In this document: positions 1 to 7,688 of the stretch, piece by piece | Layout of the letters: each line of letters begins with the position of its first letter | Position numbering within the stretch: position 1 is the first letter of the stretch | NCBI GenBank assembly: GCA_017617145.1 | Contig: JAFZWX010000075.1 | Coordinates: 1 to 7,688 of the forward strand | Length of the DNA stretch: 7,688 nucleotides | Direction of reading: 5' to 3' | Source: Treponema sp. | GTDB taxonomy: Bacteria; Spirochaetota; Spirochaetia; Treponematales; Treponemataceae | Position numbers and translations under genes: made by a program | The notes under the pieces: generated by a model | The model's input: only the letters and a program-made list of their open reading frames with translations | Told to the model about the DNA's origin: nothing | Databases searched by the model: none

Positions 1-1617
1 GTAGACAATTTTACAACCTTTGCTGCCGATTATAACGACTATTCGATTCTGCAGCTTTTGCTTTATGCATTCGGCAACAAACTTGAAGATTATGCTACCA
101 TGCTCTATTACGCTCCTTATGAACCAAATGAAGGAGACCCAAAACTTCTTTCGAATACTGATTGGGTACCTCCTGAAGACATAGACTGGACCCAGCGTGT
201 CTGGTTTATACAAGCCGTAATAAACGAAGGCAGAACAACCTACTCAACCCCTTATATAGATGCAAATACAGGAGAGCTTTGTGTTTCAATTTCACAGGCA
301 GTTTACAATTCTGAAGGAAAGCTTCAGGGTGTTGTTGGCTGCGATATTCTTCTTGACAGTCTTGTTAATGCAATAAAAGAAATAAAAATATCTAAAAACG
401 CAAAGCTTGATTTAATTACAGAAGCCGGATTGTATTTAACAAATGACGACCCTTCTAAAGTAATGACTGCAAACTGGAACGACTATACCTCTTACACCGG
501 TGACAAGACTTCCTGGTTTAATGGAAAAACCAAAACCTCCATTGAAAAAAAGAATTATTATGCTGTTTGCAAAATTGGTAACGCTCCATGGTTTATTGTT
601 GTAGAAGGTCCGGTTGTTGATTTTAAGGGAATGCTTGCAAACGTTATTGTTATCTTTGAAATTTTAATGTTTGTATTTAGTATTGCGGCATCTCTTTTAA
701 ATATCCGAACTCTTAATAAAATGCGCCAGGATGAACAGAAGCTTGCCGACCAGCTTTTTGAAGATGCACAAAGTCTTGTTGTTTCTTCTAAAGAAAATGC
801 GGCAACTGCCCAGGATCAGAGCGCGGCTGTAAAAGAAATAGTTGCAACCATGGAAGACAACACCGCGTTAAGCGAAGACATCTCTCAAAAAATAAAAGAT
901 GTTTCGGGAGTTGCAGTAAAAACAAATACTATTGTTGCAGAAGGCGTTTCGTTTATTGAAGCAAATATGCAGCAGCTTCAGGAAATTGCAGACACAAATC
1001 TTAATACAATCAGAGGAATCAAAGATCTGGGTGAAAAAATCGAAAACATCTGGAGTATTGTTTCTCTTATTAATTCCGTTGCAGACCAGGCAAAAATCAT
1101 TGCCTTTAATGCAGAGCTTGAAGCAAATAATACAAACTCAAGCGGTAAGAATTTCCATATTGTTGCAAATGAAATCCGCCGCCTTGCAGATGGAATTATT
1201 GAAAGCACAAAAGAAATTAAAACCCGCATAACAGAAATTCAGGAATCTTCTGATGACCTTATTCTTGCAAGTGAAAACGGAACAGAAAAAATTCAGTCTG
1301 GTGTTGAAAATGCAAAGAACCTTGAAACTCGTTTTTCGAGCATAAAGAACGCTTCCGAAATTACTGCCGAAAGTGCCGAAAAAATTACAACCATTATTCA
1401 GCAGCAGGCTCTGGCTAGTGAACAGATTCTTATAACTCTTAAACAGATTGCAGCCGGAGTTTCTAATTTCTCTATGGCTACAGATTACATTTCTAAAGCT
1501 TCCGAAAATCTTAAAACCGTTGCAACTGAACTTAGCGAAACAAAAGACACCGGCGAAGAAGACGCAGAAGATGCTGACGAAGACGTTGATGAAGAAGAAC
1601 ACGACGATGAGGAATAA
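1..1617 (+). CDS. Methyl-accepting chemoreceptor with dCache sensor, 5'-truncated by the window edge
   Basis: The reading frame is open from base 1, so the true start and first membrane segment lie upstream; 538 residues are visible. Residues about 1-205 look like the C-terminal part of a periplasmic dCache_1 domain: R66-x-W68, PYID at 84-87, and GVVGCD ending at D115. One hydrophobic membrane segment follows at about 211-234. I see no clear HAMP domain; a long coiled-coil signalling region runs from about 235 to 515, with roughly 140 residues on each side of the hairpin tip. The tip (D362 onward, with FNAELEA) keeps the Asn and Glu of the family core but is otherwise divergent. E279 sits in a stretch resembling a methylation site (AAVKEIVAT). 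The C-terminus has no CheR-tethering pentapeptide; instead 17 of the last 23 residues are Asp or Glu. It is the first visible gene of a chemosensory operon and presumably its input. The family call is secure; the ligand is unknown. Confidence 0.93.
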   Translation, partial: VDNFTTFAADYNDYSILQLLLYAFGNKLEDYATMLYYAPYEPNEGDPKLLSNTDWVPPEDIDWTQRVWFIQAVINEGRTTYSTPYIDANTGELCVSISQAVYNSEGKLQGVVGCDILLDSLVNAIKEIKISKNAKLDLITEAGLYLTNDDPSKVMTANWNDYTSYTGDKTSWFNGKTKTSIEKKNYYAVCKIGNAPWFIVVEGPVVDFKGMLANVIVIFEILMFVFSIAASLLNIRTLNKMRQDEQKLADQLFEDAQSLVVSSKENAATAQDQSAAVKEIVATMEDNTALSEDISQKIKDVSGVAVKTNTIVAEGVSFIEANMQQLQEIADTNLNTIRGIKDLGEKIENIWSIVSLINSVADQAKIIAFNAELEANNTNSSGKNFHIVANEIRRLADGIIESTKEIKTRITEIQESSDDLILASENGTEKIQSGVENAKNLETRFSSIKNASEITAESAEKITTIIQQQALASEQILITLKQIAAGVSNFSMATDYISKASENLKTVATELSETKDTGEEDAEDADEDVDEEEHDDEE

Positions 1618-1626
1618 GAGGTAGCC

Positions 1627-2133
1627 ATGAACGAAGAAATAATTGAAGAAATTGAAGCTAAAAGCGAAGAAAAAGCTGCCGCGAAAAAAGAAAAGGAAAT
1701 GACTACCTGGCTTATATTCCTTATTTCCGAAAAAAAATATGCAGTTCGTTCCAGCGATGTTGTTGAAATAATAAGTGACTTACCGGTTTACAAGCTTCCT
1801 TTTATGCCAAAATATATTGAAGGAGTTTTAAACCGCCGAGGGGACCCTTTTACTGTTGTAAATCCAAATCCTATTATTGACGGGGATTCAAACGCTGCGC
1901 CTCCAAAAAAATCAATTTTTATGATTTTTAAAAGAAGCGATGACCAGCTGGCCCTTCATATTTCGGATATTCTTTTGTTTACAAAAATCGAAGATATAAG
2001 ATTAAAGCTTATTCCCGATGCAACAGAAGAAAGTCTTTTTCTTGGAACTGTTGGTTTTGAAAAAGAAGAACTTCCTGTTTTAAATCCGAATGCATTTGAA
2101 ATACTTATAAGGAAAGATTGTGGAAAGTTCTAA
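1627..2133 (+). CDS. cheW: CheW-type coupling protein
   Basis: This 168-residue protein is a cytoplasmic adaptor expected to link the receptor tip to the CheA P5 domain. Residues about 27-165 match the CheW fold: a first strand WLIFLISEKKYAV, then VVEI at 45-48, and the family turn GVLNRRG at 66-72, where the conserved Arg-Gly of the NLRG motif is kept. The segment after it reads TVVNPN rather than the usual PVIDL. Residues 1-25 are a highly charged, Glu/Lys-rich extension not found in minimal CheW proteins. The ATG is preceded by an AAGAGG ribosome site at 1616-1621, which overlaps the stop codon of the receptor gene. The gap to the receptor gene is 9 bases, so co-translation is likely. Family assignment is confident. 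Confidence 0.9.
   Translation: MNEEIIEEIEAKSEEKAAAKKEKEMTTWLIFLISEKKYAVRSSDVVEIISDLPVYKLPFMPKYIEGVLNRRGDPFTVVNPNPIIDGDSNAAPPKKSIFMIFKRSDDQLALHISDILLFTKIEDIRLKLIPDATEESLFLGTVGFEKEELPVLNPNAFEILIRKDCGKF
2109..2113 (+). promoter_or_regulatory. Ribosome binding site for the GTG-started CheW-like gene
   Basis: AAGGA inside the 3' end of cheW stands about 6 bases before the GTG at 2120. No in-frame ATG occurs near it, which supports the GTG start and translational coupling to cheW. Confidence 0.6.
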
Positions 2134-2605
2134 TCAGTTTACCTGCTTAACCTACAACACAATAGATTTTCTCATTCAAAGTAAATATATTCTTTTTGGA
2201 CTGTATCTTAAAGAAGCAAATACAAACAAAAGTGCAGTTTTTGAAAATGAAGTTTTACCGCATATAAACATCAGCCAGTTTCTTGAAAATCAATTTATGT
2301 GTAAACCAACCGGCGAAAGCAACACTCTGCTTGTTATGAAAAAAGATGATTTTGATTCTGACTTTCAAAAACTGATTGTTGAATATACAGGTACCTCTTT
2401 TCCTGCAAGCGGGAACTTTGCAATTTCTGTTAATACTGCTGTTTCAAGCAGAGTTATGAATATAAAAATTTTACGACTGTTGCCACAAGGAATAAGAAAT
2501 GCCGTGAATGATTACGGCGTAAATGCCATTGCTTTTGCCAAACGCAGACAGCTTCTCATTTCTCCCGACAACCTTTTGAAACAACTTATGAGGTGTGAAA
2601 AATGA
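2120..2605 (+). CDS. Divergent CheW-like protein (second coupler candidate)
   Basis: This 161-residue cytoplasmic protein has no motif that identifies it outright. Its pattern of strands follows CheW: an opening strand pair (about 8-30), a stretch VLPHINISQFL at 45-55 placed where CheW has its VIPVIDL segment, a strand pair at about 69-90, and a closing segment of strand, YGVNAIAFAKRRQLLI and terminal helix (about 132-156). It lacks the G-x-x-N-x-RG turn needed by classical CheW. The position between cheW and cheB supports a coupler or array role, but that is inference. The start is a GTG inside the end of cheW, giving a 14-base overlap; an AAGGA lies at 2109-2113 just upstream, and the next in-frame ATG is about 60 codons downstream. 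It could instead be an unrelated small scaffold protein. Confidence 0.6.
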   Translation: MESSNQFTCLTYNTIDFLIQSKYILFGLYLKEANTNKSAVFENEVLPHINISQFLENQFMCKPTGESNTLLVMKKDDFDSDFQKLIVEYTGTSFPASGNFAISVNTAVSSRVMNIKILRLLPQGIRNAVNDYGVNAIAFAKRRQLLISPDNLLKQLMRCEK

Positions 2606-3585
2606 GAGTAATGCTTGTAGACTCATCTGCCGTAGTGCGAACAATCCTTGACCAGAATCTCATAAAATATGATGGAATACAAATAGTTGGCTCTGTATCA
2701 AATTGCCAGAAAATACTGGGACTTTTAAAAACTGAAAAACCAGATATTATCATTTGTGGCACCGACACAAACGACCAGAATGAAAAACAGGCCCTGGACT
2801 CAATTTGTAATGAAATAAAAATTCCTGTTGTTCTGCTCGGCGAGCCCCCCTTTTTTTCAAAGCTCATAGACACAATAGAAAAACCAAATTTAAAAGAATA
2901 CTCTCAAAGTTTTTTTGATTCGCTTGTTGAAAAACTTTCTGCCCTTTGTGCAAAACAAAAAAAGCCTGCTTCTCCATTATTGCAACCAAACAAAAACAAA
3001 GAAACCTATTCTGTTCTTTGCATTGGTGCTTCTACCGGAGGCCCTACCGCCGTTAGCGAAGTTTTGTGCGGACTTGGAAATAATTTTCCCTTGCCTGTTC
3101 TTTACACCCAGCATATTGATATTAACAGCGACAAAGAACTGGCAGAATGGTTAAACAGCGTTTGCCCGAATATTAATGTAAAGCTTGCGCAGGATGGCGA
3201 AACAGCAAAACCCGGAACTGTATACATGGCACCGGCAGAAAAACATCTGGTTATAAGTTATGTAAACAAAGACTTGCTTCCTGTTTTAAAACTTTCGGAT
3301 GAAGAACCTGAGCGATACCTTAGGCCTGCAGTAAACAAACTTTTTAAAAGCGCTGCCCTTAATTACAAAAATCACACGCTTGCAATTCTTCTAACAGGAA
3401 TGGGTGCAGACGGTGCCGACGGTTGTAAATCAATCTGCGAAAAAGGTGGCTGGACAATTGTAGAAGATAAATCTACCTGTACTGTATTTGGAATGCCTGC
3501 TGCTGCAATAGAAGCTGGAGCCGCAAAAGAAGTTTTGCCCCGCAATATGATTGCAAAACGAATTTTAGAAATGGTGAGTGAATGA
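2602..3585 (+). CDS. cheB: CheB methylesterase with a degenerate receiver domain
   Basis: CheB removes methyl groups from, and deamidates, receptor glutamate sites. This one has 327 residues: a receiver-like domain (about 1-100), a linker, and an esterase domain from about 133. The catalytic triad is complete by alignment: S144 in GASTGGP, H171 in TQHID, D270 in LTGMGADGADG. The esterase part therefore looks active. The receiver part does not look phosphorylatable: the acidic pair is D7-S8 instead of Asp-Asp, the acceptor position after KPDIIIC is G53, and the switch Thr/Ser after PVVLL is Gly. The conserved Lys is kept as K94 (KP). A Asp at 55 is two residues off. The start codon overlaps the upstream stop as ATGA, with GAGGTG about six bases before it. 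A C6-T7 tract lies at 2845-2857. Confidence 0.93.
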   Translation: MRVMLVDSSAVVRTILDQNLIKYDGIQIVGSVSNCQKILGLLKTEKPDIIICGTDTNDQNEKQALDSICNEIKIPVVLLGEPPFFSKLIDTIEKPNLKEYSQSFFDSLVEKLSALCAKQKKPASPLLQPNKNKETYSVLCIGASTGGPTAVSEVLCGLGNNFPLPVLYTQHIDINSDKELAEWLNSVCPNINVKLAQDGETAKPGTVYMAPAEKHLVISYVNKDLLPVLKLSDEEPERYLRPAVNKLFKSAALNYKNHTLAILLTGMGADGADGCKSICEKGGWTIVEDKSTCTVFGMPAAAIEAGAAKEVLPRNMIAKRILEMVSE

Positions 3586-4460
3586 TAAATAAACCTGCTG
3601 TTACACTTACAGAACAAGACCTCGATTCATTTATTTACATTCTCACAGATTGTACAGGTATTGTTCCGCGTGCATCTCACCGGGACGGAATAAAAACTTT
3701 TATTGAACAAAAAATTTCAGACAACAAATATTCTATCGAAGAATATAAGGAACTGCTGCTCACCGATAAAAATTTAAATTCTGAATTTGTAAATCAGAGC
3801 ACAGTAAACGAAACATATTTTTTCCGCGAAGAAAAACAGTTTGCTCTTCTTAAAGAAAAAATCTTTCCTGCCTGGAAAATTAAAAATCCCGGTAAGCCAA
3901 TTAAAATGTGGAGCGCAGCCTGTTCTTATGGCGAAGAAGCTTATTCTCTTGCAGTAATGGCTTTGAACTGCGGGCTTAATCCCGAAGTAGCCGCAAGCGA
4001 CATTAATTCAGATGTTCTTGAGCATTGCAAAAGCGGAGTATTTTTGGGGACTTCTCTGCGTTCTGTAGACGGAGTTCTGTTCCAGCAGTTAGTCTTACCT
4101 TACCGAAGAGCCGACGGTCGTGTTGCATTCAGCGACGATATAAAAAAACACATTAAGACAATGCAAATGAATCTTTCGGAAATTGATTCTATTTACACCG
4201 ACAGAATCCTTCCAAAAAATCAGAATATAATTTTTTTGCGCAATGTATTTATTTATTTTTCAATTCCATTAAGACAACGAATCTTAAAAGCAATTACACA
4301 AAAATGCCTTGCCGATGACGGATATCTTTTTGTTTCGATGAGCGAAATTGCGCAGCTTGATTCAACAATAGTCCCGGAAAATCTGGAAAAAATTGCAGAC
4401 GGAAACGTTTTTTATTTTCATAAATTGAGTCCGAATACAGGAGGTAATGCCAATGTCTAA
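3582..4460 (+). CDS. cheR: CheR chemoreceptor methyltransferase
   Basis: CheR transfers a methyl group from S-adenosylmethionine to receptor glutamates. The protein has 292 residues, close to the usual family length, with the small N-terminal helical domain at about 10-90 and a Rossmann-type domain after it. Family motifs are in order: NETYFFRE at 76-83 (R82 aligns with the conserved active-site Arg), the SAM loop SAACSYGEE at 111-119, ASDINSDVL with acidic D140, RNVFIYF at 220-226, and GYLFVSMSE at 247-255. No TPR extension or CheW fusion is present. The start ATG overlaps the cheB stop (ATGA), with only a weak GGTGA upstream, so translation is probably coupled to cheB. The receptor in this operon lacks the C-terminal pentapeptide tether that some CheR proteins bind, so recognition must be direct. 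Confidence 0.94.
   Translation: MINKPAVTLTEQDLDSFIYILTDCTGIVPRASHRDGIKTFIEQKISDNKYSIEEYKELLLTDKNLNSEFVNQSTVNETYFFREEKQFALLKEKIFPAWKIKNPGKPIKMWSAACSYGEEAYSLAVMALNCGLNPEVAASDINSDVLEHCKSGVFLGTSLRSVDGVLFQQLVLPYRRADGRVAFSDDIKKHIKTMQMNLSEIDSIYTDRILPKNQNIIFLRNVFIYFSIPLRQRILKAITQKCLADDGYLFVSMSEIAQLDSTIVPENLEKIADGNVFYFHKLSPNTGGNANV
4439..4444 (+). promoter_or_regulatory. Ribosome binding site deciding the cheA start
   Basis: A perfect AGGAGG lies within the last codons of cheR. Two in-frame ATG codons follow, at 4447 and 4453. Spacing is 2 bases to the first and 8 to the second, so the second is the better start and the protein begins MSKNSND. Confidence 0.8.
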
Positions 4461-6555
4461 AAATTCAAATGATATTACCGAAAGCTATGTTTCTGAAGTA
4501 AAAGAACTTCTGGAATCGGCACGCAAAGACATTATCGCATTAAAAGCAAACGAGCAGGATACCGAAAGTCTTACCCGTCTTTTGCGAAGTCTTCATACAA
4601 TAAAGGGAAATTCCCGAATGCTGGGATTTTCTACAATAGAAAAACTTGCCCATGCAGTCGAAGATATTTACAAAAGCGTAAAAGATTCAAAAATTAAAAA
4701 CTCAGACCGCCTTGTAAAACTGGTTTTTGCTGTTGCCGATAAAATTGAAAACTGCATTTCTTCTGTTTCGCAAAAAGGAAACGATACCCAGGATATAGAT
4801 CTTTATCTGCAATACTGCGACAAGCTTGCTGCCGGAGAACTTATAGACATAGACGCTTTCCTTGCCGAAGTCAATAAAAAAACAGACCTTGCACTTACAG
4901 ACGATGAAGAAGATGAGGTTGTTGAAAACGTAAATGACATTCAATCAATAAGAATTAAACTTTCGCGGGTCAACGAAATTATTACTGCCTTTGATACAAT
5001 GATAACCCGTGAGTTTCATTTAAAATCGCAGCTTGATGAACTTAAAAAACTTGAAGAAAAAATAAACAGCCGCGAGCTTTCTAAAATTCGTAAACAGCTT
5101 GAAAACGATATTTATTCCCTTGAAACTTCAATTTTTGATGTTCAGGAAAAAGCCTTTGATTTACGAATGCTTCCTATAAGTATTGTTTTGAATCCGCTTG
5201 AAATGACTGTTGCCCTTGAGTCAATCAACATGGGCAAAAAAGTAAAATGCCAGATTGATAAAACCGACATTGCAATAGACAAAGTAATTCTTGAAGAGCT
5301 TGGCGATGTGCTTATGCATCTTATAAGAAACGCGCTTGACCATGGAATTGAAACTCCTGATGAACGCAAAAAGGCCGGCAAAAACGAAGAAGGAATTATT
5401 AGTATTACCTGTGTACGCGAAGCACGATACATAGAGCTTACAGTTAGTGATGACGGCCGTGGTTTAAATTATGATAAAATCCGTGCAAAGGCAAAAACAC
5501 TGTATCCGGAACGCTCAGAAGAAATTCAAAATATGAATGAACGCGAGCTTTCGCAGTTTTTGTTCCAGTCGGGATTTTCTACAAAGGATGAAGTTACAGA
5601 GCTTAGCGGTCGTGGTGTTGGTCTTGATGTTGTCTGGTCAAATATTGAAAAAATTAAAGGCCGCGTAAGAATTGAAAGTACTCCGGGACAGGGCACTTCC
5701 TTTATTTTACACTTCCCGCTTTCGCTTTCGACCATGCAGGGACTTTTTGTTTATTCAAACAAAGAAAAATATCTTATTCCGGCCCAGCACATTGTAGATA
5801 TTATTTACCGAAAAAAATCAGATTATATTGTTTTGCAGAATCAAAACTATATGCGCTTTGAAGGTCAACTCATTCCATGCTTCCCGCTGTCATCGCTTTT
5901 TGAAGATAAAAAATCGGGACTTGCGCAGGATGAAGAACCAATTCTTATTGCAGAATACATGGAACAACGAATTGGAATTATTGTAGAACAGGTTGAACAG
6001 TATGTTTCGCTTGTTGTTAAACCAATGCCAAAGGGTTTACGCAATTGCACAATTCTTCAGGGAATTGTTTTTGACGAGCATTATGACATTGTACCTATTC
6101 TTCATGTTCCCGATATTTTGCAAAGATTCAAATCGCTCCGTGGTTACGATATTAAAAAATACGAAGCCGCAACTCAGAAAAAGACAATCAGAATTCTTGT
6201 TGTTGATGATTCGGCTACTACAAGAGAAATTGAAAAATCAATTCTTGAAGGCGCAGGTTATGTTGTTGAAGATGCTTTTGACGGACTCGACGGACTTGAA
6301 AAAGCAAAAGAAAACCATTACGACCTTATTCTTACCGATCACGAAATGCCTCGTATGACTGGTCTTGTTCTTCTTGATAACCTTCGTCGTCTTGAACAAT
6401 ACAAAGAAACTCCGGTTGTTGTTGTTACAGCCGACCGCAACCGTCAGACTGTCGATGAATTTGAGCGGCTTAAAGCTGGTGCCATTATTGCAAAGGAAGA
6501 TTTCAAACGTGGAAATCTGCTCAATGGAATTAATGAACTTTTAGGAGAAGCCTAA
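4453..6555 (+). CDS. cheA: Hybrid CheA histidine kinase with C-terminal receiver domain
   Basis: The 700-residue kinase autophosphorylates on a P1 histidine under receptor control. P1 (about 1-105) carries H48 in LHTIKGNSRMLGF. A short acidic linker follows and no P2 docking domain is recognisable. P3, the dimer helices, covers about 166-240. The P4 ATPase has the N box around N293 (HLIRNALDHG), G1 at 333-337 (DDGRG), G2 from G386 (GRGVG) and GTSF near 415. P5, CheW-like, covers about 425-565. The fused receiver (about 578-700) is complete: D585/D586, acceptor D629 (LTDHEMP), T659 and K681. It is therefore the obvious phosphate acceptor or sink in this operon. I chose the ATG at 4453 over 4447 because AGGAGG at 4439-4444 is 8 bases upstream of it but only 2 from the other. 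It overlaps the end of cheR by 8 bases. Confidence 0.95.
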   Translation: MSKNSNDITESYVSEVKELLESARKDIIALKANEQDTESLTRLLRSLHTIKGNSRMLGFSTIEKLAHAVEDIYKSVKDSKIKNSDRLVKLVFAVADKIENCISSVSQKGNDTQDIDLYLQYCDKLAAGELIDIDAFLAEVNKKTDLALTDDEEDEVVENVNDIQSIRIKLSRVNEIITAFDTMITREFHLKSQLDELKKLEEKINSRELSKIRKQLENDIYSLETSIFDVQEKAFDLRMLPISIVLNPLEMTVALESINMGKKVKCQIDKTDIAIDKVILEELGDVLMHLIRNALDHGIETPDERKKAGKNEEGIISITCVREARYIELTVSDDGRGLNYDKIRAKAKTLYPERSEEIQNMNERELSQFLFQSGFSTKDEVTELSGRGVGLDVVWSNIEKIKGRVRIESTPGQGTSFILHFPLSLSTMQGLFVYSNKEKYLIPAQHIVDIIYRKKSDYIVLQNQNYMRFEGQLIPCFPLSSLFEDKKSGLAQDEEPILIAEYMEQRIGIIVEQVEQYVSLVVKPMPKGLRNCTILQGIVFDEHYDIVPILHVPDILQRFKSLRGYDIKKYEAATQKKTIRILVVDDSATTREIEKSILEGAGYVVEDAFDGLDGLEKAKENHYDLILTDHEMPRMTGLVLLDNLRRLEQYKETPVVVVTADRNRQTVDEFERLKAGAIIAKEDFKRGNLLNGINELLGEA
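6543..6547 (+). promoter_or_regulatory. Ribosome binding site for the cyclase gene
   Basis: AGGAG within the final cheA codons lies 7 bases before the ATG at 6555. The stop and start share one base (TAATG), which favours reinitiation by ribosomes that finish cheA and ties cyclase level to kinase level. Confidence 0.75.
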
Positions 6556-7688
6556 TGTCAAAGAAAATTCTTATACTCGAAAGCTCCGTTACAATTCAAA
6601 AGCTCTTAACAAAAACTCTGGACGGCAAAAAGTATTCAATTAAGTTCGAAGCAGATTCCAAAAAAGTATTTTCTTCGCTTGTTGAATTTGAGCCTGACTT
6701 GTTTCTTATAAACTGCGATATTGAAAAACCGCGCAGCTTTGAAATTGTAAAAATTCTCAGGTCGCTCCAGGGCTTTGAAGCATTACCGGTTGGAATGTAT
6801 GCAAATATTCCTGGTGCTCTTGACCAGGCCTTTGCAAAAGAAGCGGGCGCAAATTTATTTATAAAGCTTGACCAGGAAAGTCTTGCAAAGGATGTTGAAG
6901 CGCTTGCCCAGATTGAAATTGAAGCACCAAAAAAAGCAAAGACTTCTAAAAAAGAAGCCGGCAAAAAGGCACCCGATGATTCTCTTCTTTTTTCAAATGC
7001 AACCCAGCTTCTGGACCGAAATACTTATAAAAAAGTAATGCTTTCAAAAATCGTAAAGCTTGTTGAGCATATTGAAAATCCCGAAAAAATGATACAGGAA
7101 TATCTGCTTCTTGTTGCGCAGGTTTGCGAAGTTCCTCTGGCAGCAATTTACCTTATGGAAAACGACGGCCCGCACGGTTATTATGTCTGCTCCGAAAAGC
7201 TTGATAAAAAAGATATTGCCGATTTTATGAATGTGTGTCAGATCGATTTTGAAAAAAATCAGACAGGCGGACACGCTGCAAAAATCAAACCAAAAAAACT
7301 TGAATCAGAAGAGCAGCTTGAAAACTTTTATAGTAGCGAAATTAAACTTTCAAGCTATGAATATCGTGTGTTAAAAACAGACTCCCTTGTAATGGGAACG
7401 GTGCATATTGTTTCGCAGGGCAATATCATAAGTGAAAAACTTGAGTATCTTGATTTTTGTGTTGAAGCCGCTAAAGACATTTTTGACAAAGCCCTGATTT
7501 TTGAAAAGAAAATCTTTTTTGAAAAACGAATCCGCAAAGCCTTTAGTCGTTTTGTTCCGGAACAGATTATCGACAGCCTTGTAACGCAGGCAGATAAATC
7601 AGATGAAAAAATTGCTGTTGGCGAAACCCGTGCAGTTGCAATTTTGTTCAGCGATATCCGTTCGTTTACAAACATCAGTGAAAAAAAC
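6555..7688 (+). CDS. Class III adenylate/guanylate cyclase with receiver-like and GAF-like N-terminus, 3'-truncated by the window edge
   Basis: The frame is open to the window end, giving 378 residues; most of the catalytic domain lies beyond. Residues 1-118 follow a receiver fold (KKILILESS, EPDLFLIN, LPVGMYA, NLFIKLD with K104), but the acidic pair is E9-S10 and the acceptor position is N53. A lysine-rich linker covers about 125-139. Residues about 165-312 resemble a GAF domain, followed by a helical linker FEKRIRKAFSRFVPEQIIDSL of the kind that precedes class III cyclases. The catalytic domain starts near 355 with AILFSDIRSFTNISE, in which D367 aligns with the first metal-binding Asp. Substrate choice (ATP or GTP) cannot be read because those residues are off-window. 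It starts in a TAATG overlap with cheA, with AGGAG seven bases upstream. It is probably the pathway's output enzyme. Confidence 0.88.
   Translation, partial: MSKKILILESSVTIQKLLTKTLDGKKYSIKFEADSKKVFSSLVEFEPDLFLINCDIEKPRSFEIVKILRSLQGFEALPVGMYANIPGALDQAFAKEAGANLFIKLDQESLAKDVEALAQIEIEAPKKAKTSKKEAGKKAPDDSLLFSNATQLLDRNTYKKVMLSKIVKLVEHIENPEKMIQEYLLLVAQVCEVPLAAIYLMENDGPHGYYVCSEKLDKKDIADFMNVCQIDFEKNQTGGHAAKIKPKKLESEEQLENFYSSEIKLSSYEYRVLKTDSLVMGTVHIVSQGNIISEKLEYLDFCVEAAKDIFDKALIFEKKIFFEKRIRKAFSRFVPEQIIDSLVTQADKSDEKIAVGETRAVAILFSDIRSFTNISEKN

Follow-up and report, generated by a model that had tools for sequence, protein, structure and literature searches.

The stretch of DNA analysed here, referred to throughout as the window, is a 7,688-nt sequence from Treponema sp. 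(assembly GCA_017617145.1, contig JAFZWX010000075.1, positions 1–7,688). It is filled by seven frames on the plus strand that together constitute a chemosensory module, encoding in order a chemoreceptor (methyl-accepting chemotaxis protein, MCP), CheW, a CheW-like protein, CheB, CheR, a hybrid CheA with its own receiver (REC), and a class III nucleotide cyclase. The receiver of the cyclase lacks the usual phosphoacceptor residue, and in 28 sister loci the kinase domain of CheA is gone while receptor and cyclase persist. We describe the window, compare it with related loci, and consider how such an array might act on its cyclase.

Gene content of the window

All features described below are on the plus strand. 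The first frame (1–1617), which is cut at its 5′ end, encodes the chemoreceptor, with a dCache_1 sensor (PF02743, E-value 2e-17) and a signalling domain (PF00015, MCPsignal, 6.6e-20); the hairpin tip (1093–1131) reads KIIAFNAELEANN and is specific to the module, the chemotaxis receptors of two relatives having mostly NLLAMNAAIEAAH. Next come the CheW coupling protein (1627–2133; PF01584, 1.3e-9), a divergent CheW-like protein of 161 aa with a GTG start and a weak fold match to CheA-P5/CheW (2120–2605), a CheB methylesterase (2602–3585; PF01339, 1.9e-56), and a CheR methyltransferase of 292 aa (3582–4460; PF01739, 1.5e-34). The catalytic Ser, His and Asp of CheB are present and its receiver is degenerate, with Gly53 (2758–2760) in place of the phosphosite Asp.

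The hybrid CheA (4447–6555) contains Hpt (P1), HATPase_c (P4), CheW-like (P5) and Response_reg domains recognized by Pfam. Its phosphorylatable His50 lies in the P1 motif HTIKG (4594–4608), the kinase domain (5305–5724; PF02518, 9e-18) has intact N, G1 and G2 boxes (5317–5346, 5449–5463 and 5608–5628), and the receiver (6193–6522; PF00072, 2.4e-21) has an intact phosphosite, Asp631 (6337–6339). The last frame (6555–7688), cut at its 3′ end, provides the first 378 residues of a protein that, from the open reading frame (ORF), its homologues and a structural model, is composed of a pseudo-receiver, a GAF-like part and a class III cyclase. Alignment and model both place Asn53 (6711–6713) at the receiver phosphosite instead of Asp, and the catalytic domain begins, by alignment, with FSDIRSFT (7647–7670), which we take to carry the first metal-binding Asp of class III cyclases.

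Successive genes are separated by one 9-base gap and then by overlaps of 14, 4, 4, 14 and 1 bases. The frames, their spacing and the Pfam matches bear out the original prediction, made from the sequence by itself, of a packed chemosensory module ending in a cyclase; its further claim of a single transcript agrees with the tight packing, and it is this gene spacing that suggests cotranscription. Scans for ORFs, Pfam domains, tRNAs and Rfam families turned up no separate cheY-like frame, tRNA gene or Rfam match in the window.

Distribution and conservation of the module

A first scan, of species genomes, used a 30-row homologue alignment as query, the cyclase fragment of the window having given no match when used alone. 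Twenty-five loci match from the receiver onward, 24 of them over the whole length and one (L019) cut; Treponema ruminis RU1, a complete genome, is among them, and T. bryantii is the source name of homologue P0058, which fits a Treponema origin of the window. In a second scan a receiver-GAF profile was compared with 195 genomes of the T. ruminis family, and loci were taken from the matches listed at E-values of 3.5e-36 or lower, minus one fragment (G179:C328). Cyclase ORFs are present in 122 of the 124 loci scanned, L140 and L141 being excluded with the opposite frame called, and 118 distinct loci remain after four identical copies (L121, L126, L127 and L149) are dropped; L181 and L196, which are cut by contig ends, are not included in counts of kinase state. 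The module is thus widespread in the T. ruminis family, and several genomes have two.

For all 122 module cyclases (ORFs of at least 400 aa) the gene immediately upstream is CheA-like and lies on the same strand, and in 94 cases the two genes overlap. As a control, the same criterion was applied to 56 cyclase ORFs from 55 loci that match in the catalytic half only; an upstream ORF is present for 54 of these and is on the same strand for 30, and it is CheA-like for just two. The linkage of CheA and cyclase therefore exceeds what chance would give. The two control exceptions are L035 and L027, the latter of which groups inside the module family among the early-branching members on a rooted tree.

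Comparison of gene order across Treponema genomes, suggested in the original prediction, shows conservation beyond this pair. Window-type loci—the kinase-intact loci of the window's clade—have the full order MCP-CheW-CheW2-CheB-CheR-CheA-cyclase in 26 of 35 cases, with a further MCP downstream in 16 of the 26; in the other nine at least one upstream gene was not seen, several being cut by contig ends. Membership of the window-type group was at first decided in part by the phosphosite residue itself; a recount by tree clade gave identical numbers (35 kinase-intact and 28 kinase-less loci) plus L191. The absence of cheY that had been pointed out for the window extends to its relatives, in that no stand-alone receiver ORF shorter than 200 aa was found near the 118 loci within the available flanks; the single match comes from a CheA truncated at the end of a contig, and the profile used does detect the CheY of T. 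ruminis (71 bits).

It could be argued that linkage reflects shared expression and no direct control, with the array acting via an unlinked response regulator and the cyclase responding to metabolites or through its GAF-like domain. T. ruminis does encode CheY and CheX separately, and a contact between CheA and the cyclase is something that we infer; however, adjacency in 122 of 122 loci is poorly explained in this way, as is the persistence of receptor and cyclase where the kinase has been lost, an operon receptor being called in 27 of the 28 kinase-less loci. We regard an association of this loose kind as improbable.

A further paralogous module type (L111, L112, L113, L115, L166, L203 and others) has receptors downstream and a CheR of about 430–560 aa with a C-terminal extension, which was not recognized by Pfam in the two scanned (L112 and L115). 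Its receiver phosphosites vary, with Asp, Tyr, Ser and Asn all seen.

The cyclase and its receiver

About 20 residues of the catalytic domain are covered by the window. The homologue P0001 shares 97% identity with the window's protein across its 378 residues; P0001 is 616 aa long and contains a complete PF00211 domain (5.7e-28), in agreement with the class III output originally proposed. Residues D367, D411, K407, N489 and R493 are invariant in 30 homologues, the window itself ending after the first Asp; D367 and D411 are presumably the metal-binding Asps, K407 the substrate Lys, and N489 and R493 the transition-state residues. The metal Asps and the Lys are present in all 118 loci and the Asn and Arg in every one whose sequence is complete at those positions, so that the dead catalytic domain for which the original prediction had allowed is not seen among the relatives. 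We take K407 together with D480 to be an adenine-type pair. P0001 has D480, and of the window-type and kinase-less sequences that extend to this position only L114 and L161 do not. The enzyme is probably an adenylate cyclase, with cAMP as its product. The GAF-like part is recognized from the model, plus weak Pfam matches in two relatives only (L012 and L023).

The receiver of the cyclase, modelled at pLDDT 78–87, matches solved receivers in the Foldseek list at TM-scores of up to 0.89, and Asn53 is the last residue of β3. None of the 64 cyclases in the window's clade, as defined by the tree, has Asp at this position (62 have Asn, one His and one Thr). In the other gut-Treponema clade, which is kinase-intact, 19 of 50 cyclases retain the Asp, as do all four early-branching members within the 118, giving 23 of 118 overall; the conserved receiver Lys is kept in four of the 118 and is lost in the window's clade. 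At position 55, 15 of the 36 window-type rows (counting P0001) have Asp, and 24 of the 28 kinase-less rows have Arg or Lys; because the position is not conserved, Asp55 does not appear to be a substitute phosphosite. By sequence and model the cyclase receiver is a pseudo-receiver—a receiver fold lacking the phosphoacceptor Asp, as the original prediction had named it—and is predicted to be unable to take phosphate from CheA in the usual way.

These observations bear on the phosphorelay from CheA to cyclase that the original prediction implied. In a conventional relay resembling that of the Wsp system, the CheA of the window would phosphorylate the cyclase receiver at Asp55 or some other residue, for which it has an intact kinase domain and P1 His; early-branching relatives have canonical receivers, and the retention of Asp in 19 of the 50 cyclases of the other clade is also in keeping with such a relay. 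The prevalence of Asn at position 53, the variability of position 55 and the loss of the conserved Lys all speak against it in the window's own clade. Because the receiver phosphosite has been lost and sister loci have lost the kinase as well, we give little credence to a phosphorelay onto window-type cyclases.

Two further observations concern possible targets of the cyclase product. Proteins with two matches to cyclic nucleotide monophosphate (cNMP)-binding domains in one frame, of about 380–430 aa (L245, L246, L250 and L252), are present in all 14 genomes searched and are candidate receptors for it. A cyclic-nucleotide receptor within the operon was looked for and rejected: nine of the ten downstream ORFs inspected resemble, by eye, the membrane part of another receptor, and no link to a target was found.

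Loss of the kinase in sister loci

The CheA genes of 28 distinct loci lack P4 and have the P1 His replaced, and they retain P5, as seen by profile and alignment and checked with Pfam in five (L010, L012, L015, L020 and L022). The REC domain of these proteins is also shorter, by about nine residues at α4, in 25 of the 26 measured (L010, L012, L015, L022 and others); α4 forms part of the usual output face of receivers. For the kinase-less CheA gene and its cyclase, dN/dS (the ratio of nonsynonymous to synonymous substitution rates) is 0.05–0.12 (five of seven pairs with usable dS, which is high at 0.9–2.3), and both genes are under purifying selection. Assembly error or pseudogene formation was rejected as an explanation, since the in-frame deletion is common to 28 distinct loci and selection is purifying.

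We also considered whether CheA might be split, with its kinase encoded nearby. No P4 ORF was found beside the 28 kinase-less loci, except for one weak, 22-bit match in an 844-aa ORF. Five of nine kinase-less genomes searched have a single CheA-type P4, which adjoins a chemotaxis CheW-CheR fusion, and the other four hold further P4 CheAs; most of these genomes are metagenome assemblies and possibly incomplete. With one weak P4 match near the 28 loci, and the single P4 of five genomes lying at chemotaxis genes, a split CheA was rejected.

Two other CheAs have lost residues of the kinase without deletion of the domain. That of L191 has lost the P1 His, the N box, the G2 box and the REC Asp, and that of L210 the P1 His and G2; as judged from these residues both are degenerate kinases, and in both loci the cyclase is intact.

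Probable order of events

Thirteen early-branching cyclases, four in the main set and nine added, form the two first branches of a catalytic-domain tree rooted with the control cyclases, and the whole gut-Treponema clade is nested (100/98). (Among the additions, L283 duplicates the locus L024 and no cyclase ORF was obtained for L286, which left nine new cyclases.) Twelve of the 13 keep both the Asp and the Lys, the exception being L293. Because canonical members branch first on the rooted tree, the ancestral module was probably a Wsp-like phosphorelay from CheA to the receiver of a REC-GAF-cyclase.

The kinase-less loci form one clade, supported on the cyclase tree by an SH-aLRT (Shimodaira–Hasegawa-like approximate likelihood ratio test) value of 85, or 98 without L177, and on the tree of CheA P5-REC by a value of 100. 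L210 is separate from them by the approximately unbiased (AU) test (p = 1e-5), as is L191 on the cyclase tree (p = 0.0165). Since L210, and perhaps L191, lie apart from the kinase-less clade, the kinase appears to have been lost at least twice and perhaps three times, in each case where the cyclase lacks the phosphosite.

Receptors, couplers and methylation proteins

Module receptors share the hairpin tip KIIAFNAELEA, the usual chemotaxis tip being NLLAMNAAIEAAHAG. All 46 window-type receptors match the pattern FN.E, as do 19 of 20 from kinase-less loci and 39 of 51 from loci of the other type, the rest being unmatched by the search pattern; the early-branching loci have five receptors, which show FN.A or FN.S. 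In T. ruminis the module tip occurs in four of the 17 receptors in which the tip is visible (18 matched), three of the four being from the operon, and in G002, a genome with the kinase-less type, it occurs in one of 14 receptors, the operon's own. A T. ruminis receptor with the module tip, L244 (G001:C1:1360776-1361240), is encoded outside the operon, and from this example unlinked receptors may also provide input to the module array. The chemotaxis locus of T. ruminis is separate from the module, and by Pfam it encodes a CheA with P2, a CheW-CheR fusion, CheX and CheY.

The two couplers of the original prediction are differently placed: the first is a CheW by its PF01584 match, and the second is assigned from a weak fold match. 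The second coupler has no Pfam match and no profile similarity to the first CheW, and its profile found no CheW by sequence in the PDB; Foldseek matches its model (mean pLDDT 59) weakly to CheA-P5/CheW chains (E 0.03–0.35). A plain CheW was rejected on the failure of the profile comparison, the weak fold match remaining, and we suggest from the model that it is probably a very divergent CheW. The family to which it belongs, of about 130–180 aa (e.g. L113:6374-6805), lies second after CheW in kinase-intact modules; members are present in window-type and many other kinase-intact modules, and none was found in the operon maps of kinase-less ones.

Like the window, several of its close relatives have a CheB receiver without the phosphosite Asp. 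The overall pattern, with the residue lost in these loci and mostly kept in kinase-less ones, is the opposite of what would be expected.

Proposed control of the cyclase

We favour, with moderate confidence, a mechanism in which the module forms a sensing array of its own and regulates its cyclase, probably an adenylate cyclase, through protein contact instead of phosphotransfer. The dCache receptor, with its module tip, would bind its own CheW proteins and the P5 domain of CheA; CheR and CheB, where present, would set the methylation of the receptor, which would change the state of the array. That state would reach the cyclase through contact of the C-terminal part of CheA (P5 and/or REC) with the pseudo-receiver-GAF region. 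In the lineage of the window the ancestral receiver would have turned into a pseudo-receiver (Asp53 to Asn), and CheA could still pass phosphate to the receiver that it carries, perhaps to tune or reset the array; in the sister loci without a kinase the contact route would suffice, unless another CheA acts in trans. A farther-reaching version, which we put forward tentatively, is that arrays in gut Treponema can signal without any His-Asp phosphotransfer, a CheW-like/REC scaffold that was formerly CheA making contact with an adenylate cyclase gated by its pseudo-receiver. Living genomes would still show the stages: first a canonical relay, next a pseudo-receiver beside an intact kinase (as in the window), and finally deletion of the kinase.

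Several observations weigh against control by contact. The CheA of the window keeps both HATPase_c and the P1 His and is, by sequence, an intact kinase, and the other gut-Treponema clade has not uniformly given up the phosphosite of its cyclase. The Asp of the CheA REC is kept in 117 of 118 loci, including all 28 that are kinase-less, where the Lys is kept too, and being nearly universal it implies that phosphorylation still matters somewhere. Of the 25 CheBs in kinase-less loci, 21 have a receiver with both the DD pair and the phosphosite Asp, which suggests a kinase acting in trans, and two kinase-less modules (L010 and L165) have neither CheB nor CheR, so that methylation is not always part of the scheme. 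The trees are not unanimous, as the kinase-intact L114 splits the kinase-less loci on a smaller catalytic-domain tree—a grouping that may reflect recombination or a second kinase loss—and L191 is not separated from them on the short CheA tree (AU p = 0.60). The catalytic domain of the cyclase is poorly modelled, and for this reason no CheA-cyclase contact was predicted.

Some of these points suit a serious rival explanation in which the kinase is supplied in trans. The kinase-less CheA would then be a CheV-like adaptor composed of P5 and REC, the chemotaxis CheA would phosphorylate this REC as well as CheB, and phospho-REC would control the cyclase; in the window its own CheA would do so. The conserved Asp and Lys of REC and the canonical CheB receivers are as expected under such an arrangement, and at least one CheA-type P4 is present in all ten genomes searched, nine of which have a kinase-less module. 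However, the tip of the module receptors differs from that of the chemotaxis receptors in T. ruminis and G002, the REC is missing the α4 residues noted above, and four of the 25 CheBs of the kinase-less type are bare methylesterases with no receiver (L011:1042-1743, L138, L145 and L146). We judge a kinase in trans to be unlikely, though deserving of close attention.

The kinase CheA is the defining component of chemosensory signalling, and in these loci receptor and output outlive it. The family makes it possible to test directly whether conformation by itself is enough for an array to control an enzyme and, if control is by contact as we favour, it supplies a series of intermediates on the way from phosphorelay to contact switch. 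The module may also represent a receptor-driven route to cyclic nucleotide in spirochetes; a passage of PMC9043183 reports that cAMP from the light-activated cyclase LprA rapidly altered swimming in Leptospira kobayashii. The observation on which the original prediction was built is sound, and the relatives make the module more interesting than was stated there.

Comparison with known systems

The module is assigned by its gene content to the alternative cellular function (ACF), or Wsp-like, kind of chemosensory system, with a class III cyclase as output: receptor, couplers, CheR, CheB, hybrid CheA-REC and output gene are all in one cluster. It does not have the REC-GGDEF output of WspR, the full-length homologue containing a PF00211 class III domain instead. 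The original prediction did not recognize the arrangement as characterized, and our searches of the open-access literature, at the level of titles and abstracts, likewise found no published description of a Treponema chemosensory system with a class III cyclase, of a kinase-less CheA, or of chemosensory control of a cyclase that is independent of phosphorylation.

Several systems share particular features with the module. FrzS is among the matches found for the cyclase, and its receiver fold likewise lacks a phosphosite. The F2 chemotaxis system of Treponema occurs in the same genomes and uses the same kinds of protein; however, the CheW-CheR-like protein, CheX and CheY of F2 are all absent from the module, and T. 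ruminis has the three in one separate locus. The parts of PMC7666581 that deal with F2 describe its CheW-CheR-like protein and a single cheA in T. denticola. CheA3 of Rhodobacter sphaeroides resembles the CheA of the sister loci in having no working kinase, but according to the relevant portion of PMC10782961 it receives phosphate from CheA4, whereas the kinase-less CheA of the module lacks the P1 His too and has no convincing P4 ORF nearby. The same paper, a survey of 13,673 CheA sequences, reports HATPase_c in every homolog, though a sequence set gathered as CheA may have missed kinase-less ones.

The Wsp system of Pseudomonas (WspA-F and WspR) is like the module in its receptor, two couplers, CheR, CheB, CheA and a cyclase with an N-terminal receiver, and WspR itself (3i5a) is in the Foldseek list for the cyclase model. 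As summarized in a section of PMC8552884, WspE phosphorylates WspR; the module differs in having a class III and not a GGDEF output, a receiver that is predicted not to be phosphorylatable in the usual way, and sister loci without a kinase. That the output of Wsp can be exchanged is illustrated in the same section by the H-systems of Burkholderia, where WspH carries a histidine kinase instead of GGDEF, although WspH retains a receiver thought to be phosphorylated by WspE, unlike the pseudo-receiver of the module.

The Pil-Chp system of Pseudomonas aeruginosa acts on cAMP through the adenylate cyclase CyaB, as stated in passages of PMC3019171 and PMC10519157. The first of these passages also describes FimL, which is homologous to the N-terminal part of ChpA, has Gln where a phospho-accepting His would be, and acts on CyaB post-translationally. 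FimL is a separate protein and ChpA is still a kinase, whereas in the sister loci described here it is the CheA gene itself that is kinase-less, and the cyclase, with its pseudo-receiver, is encoded in the operon. Of the known systems, Wsp comes nearest in plan, and Pil-Chp, with FimL and CyaB, comes nearest in function.

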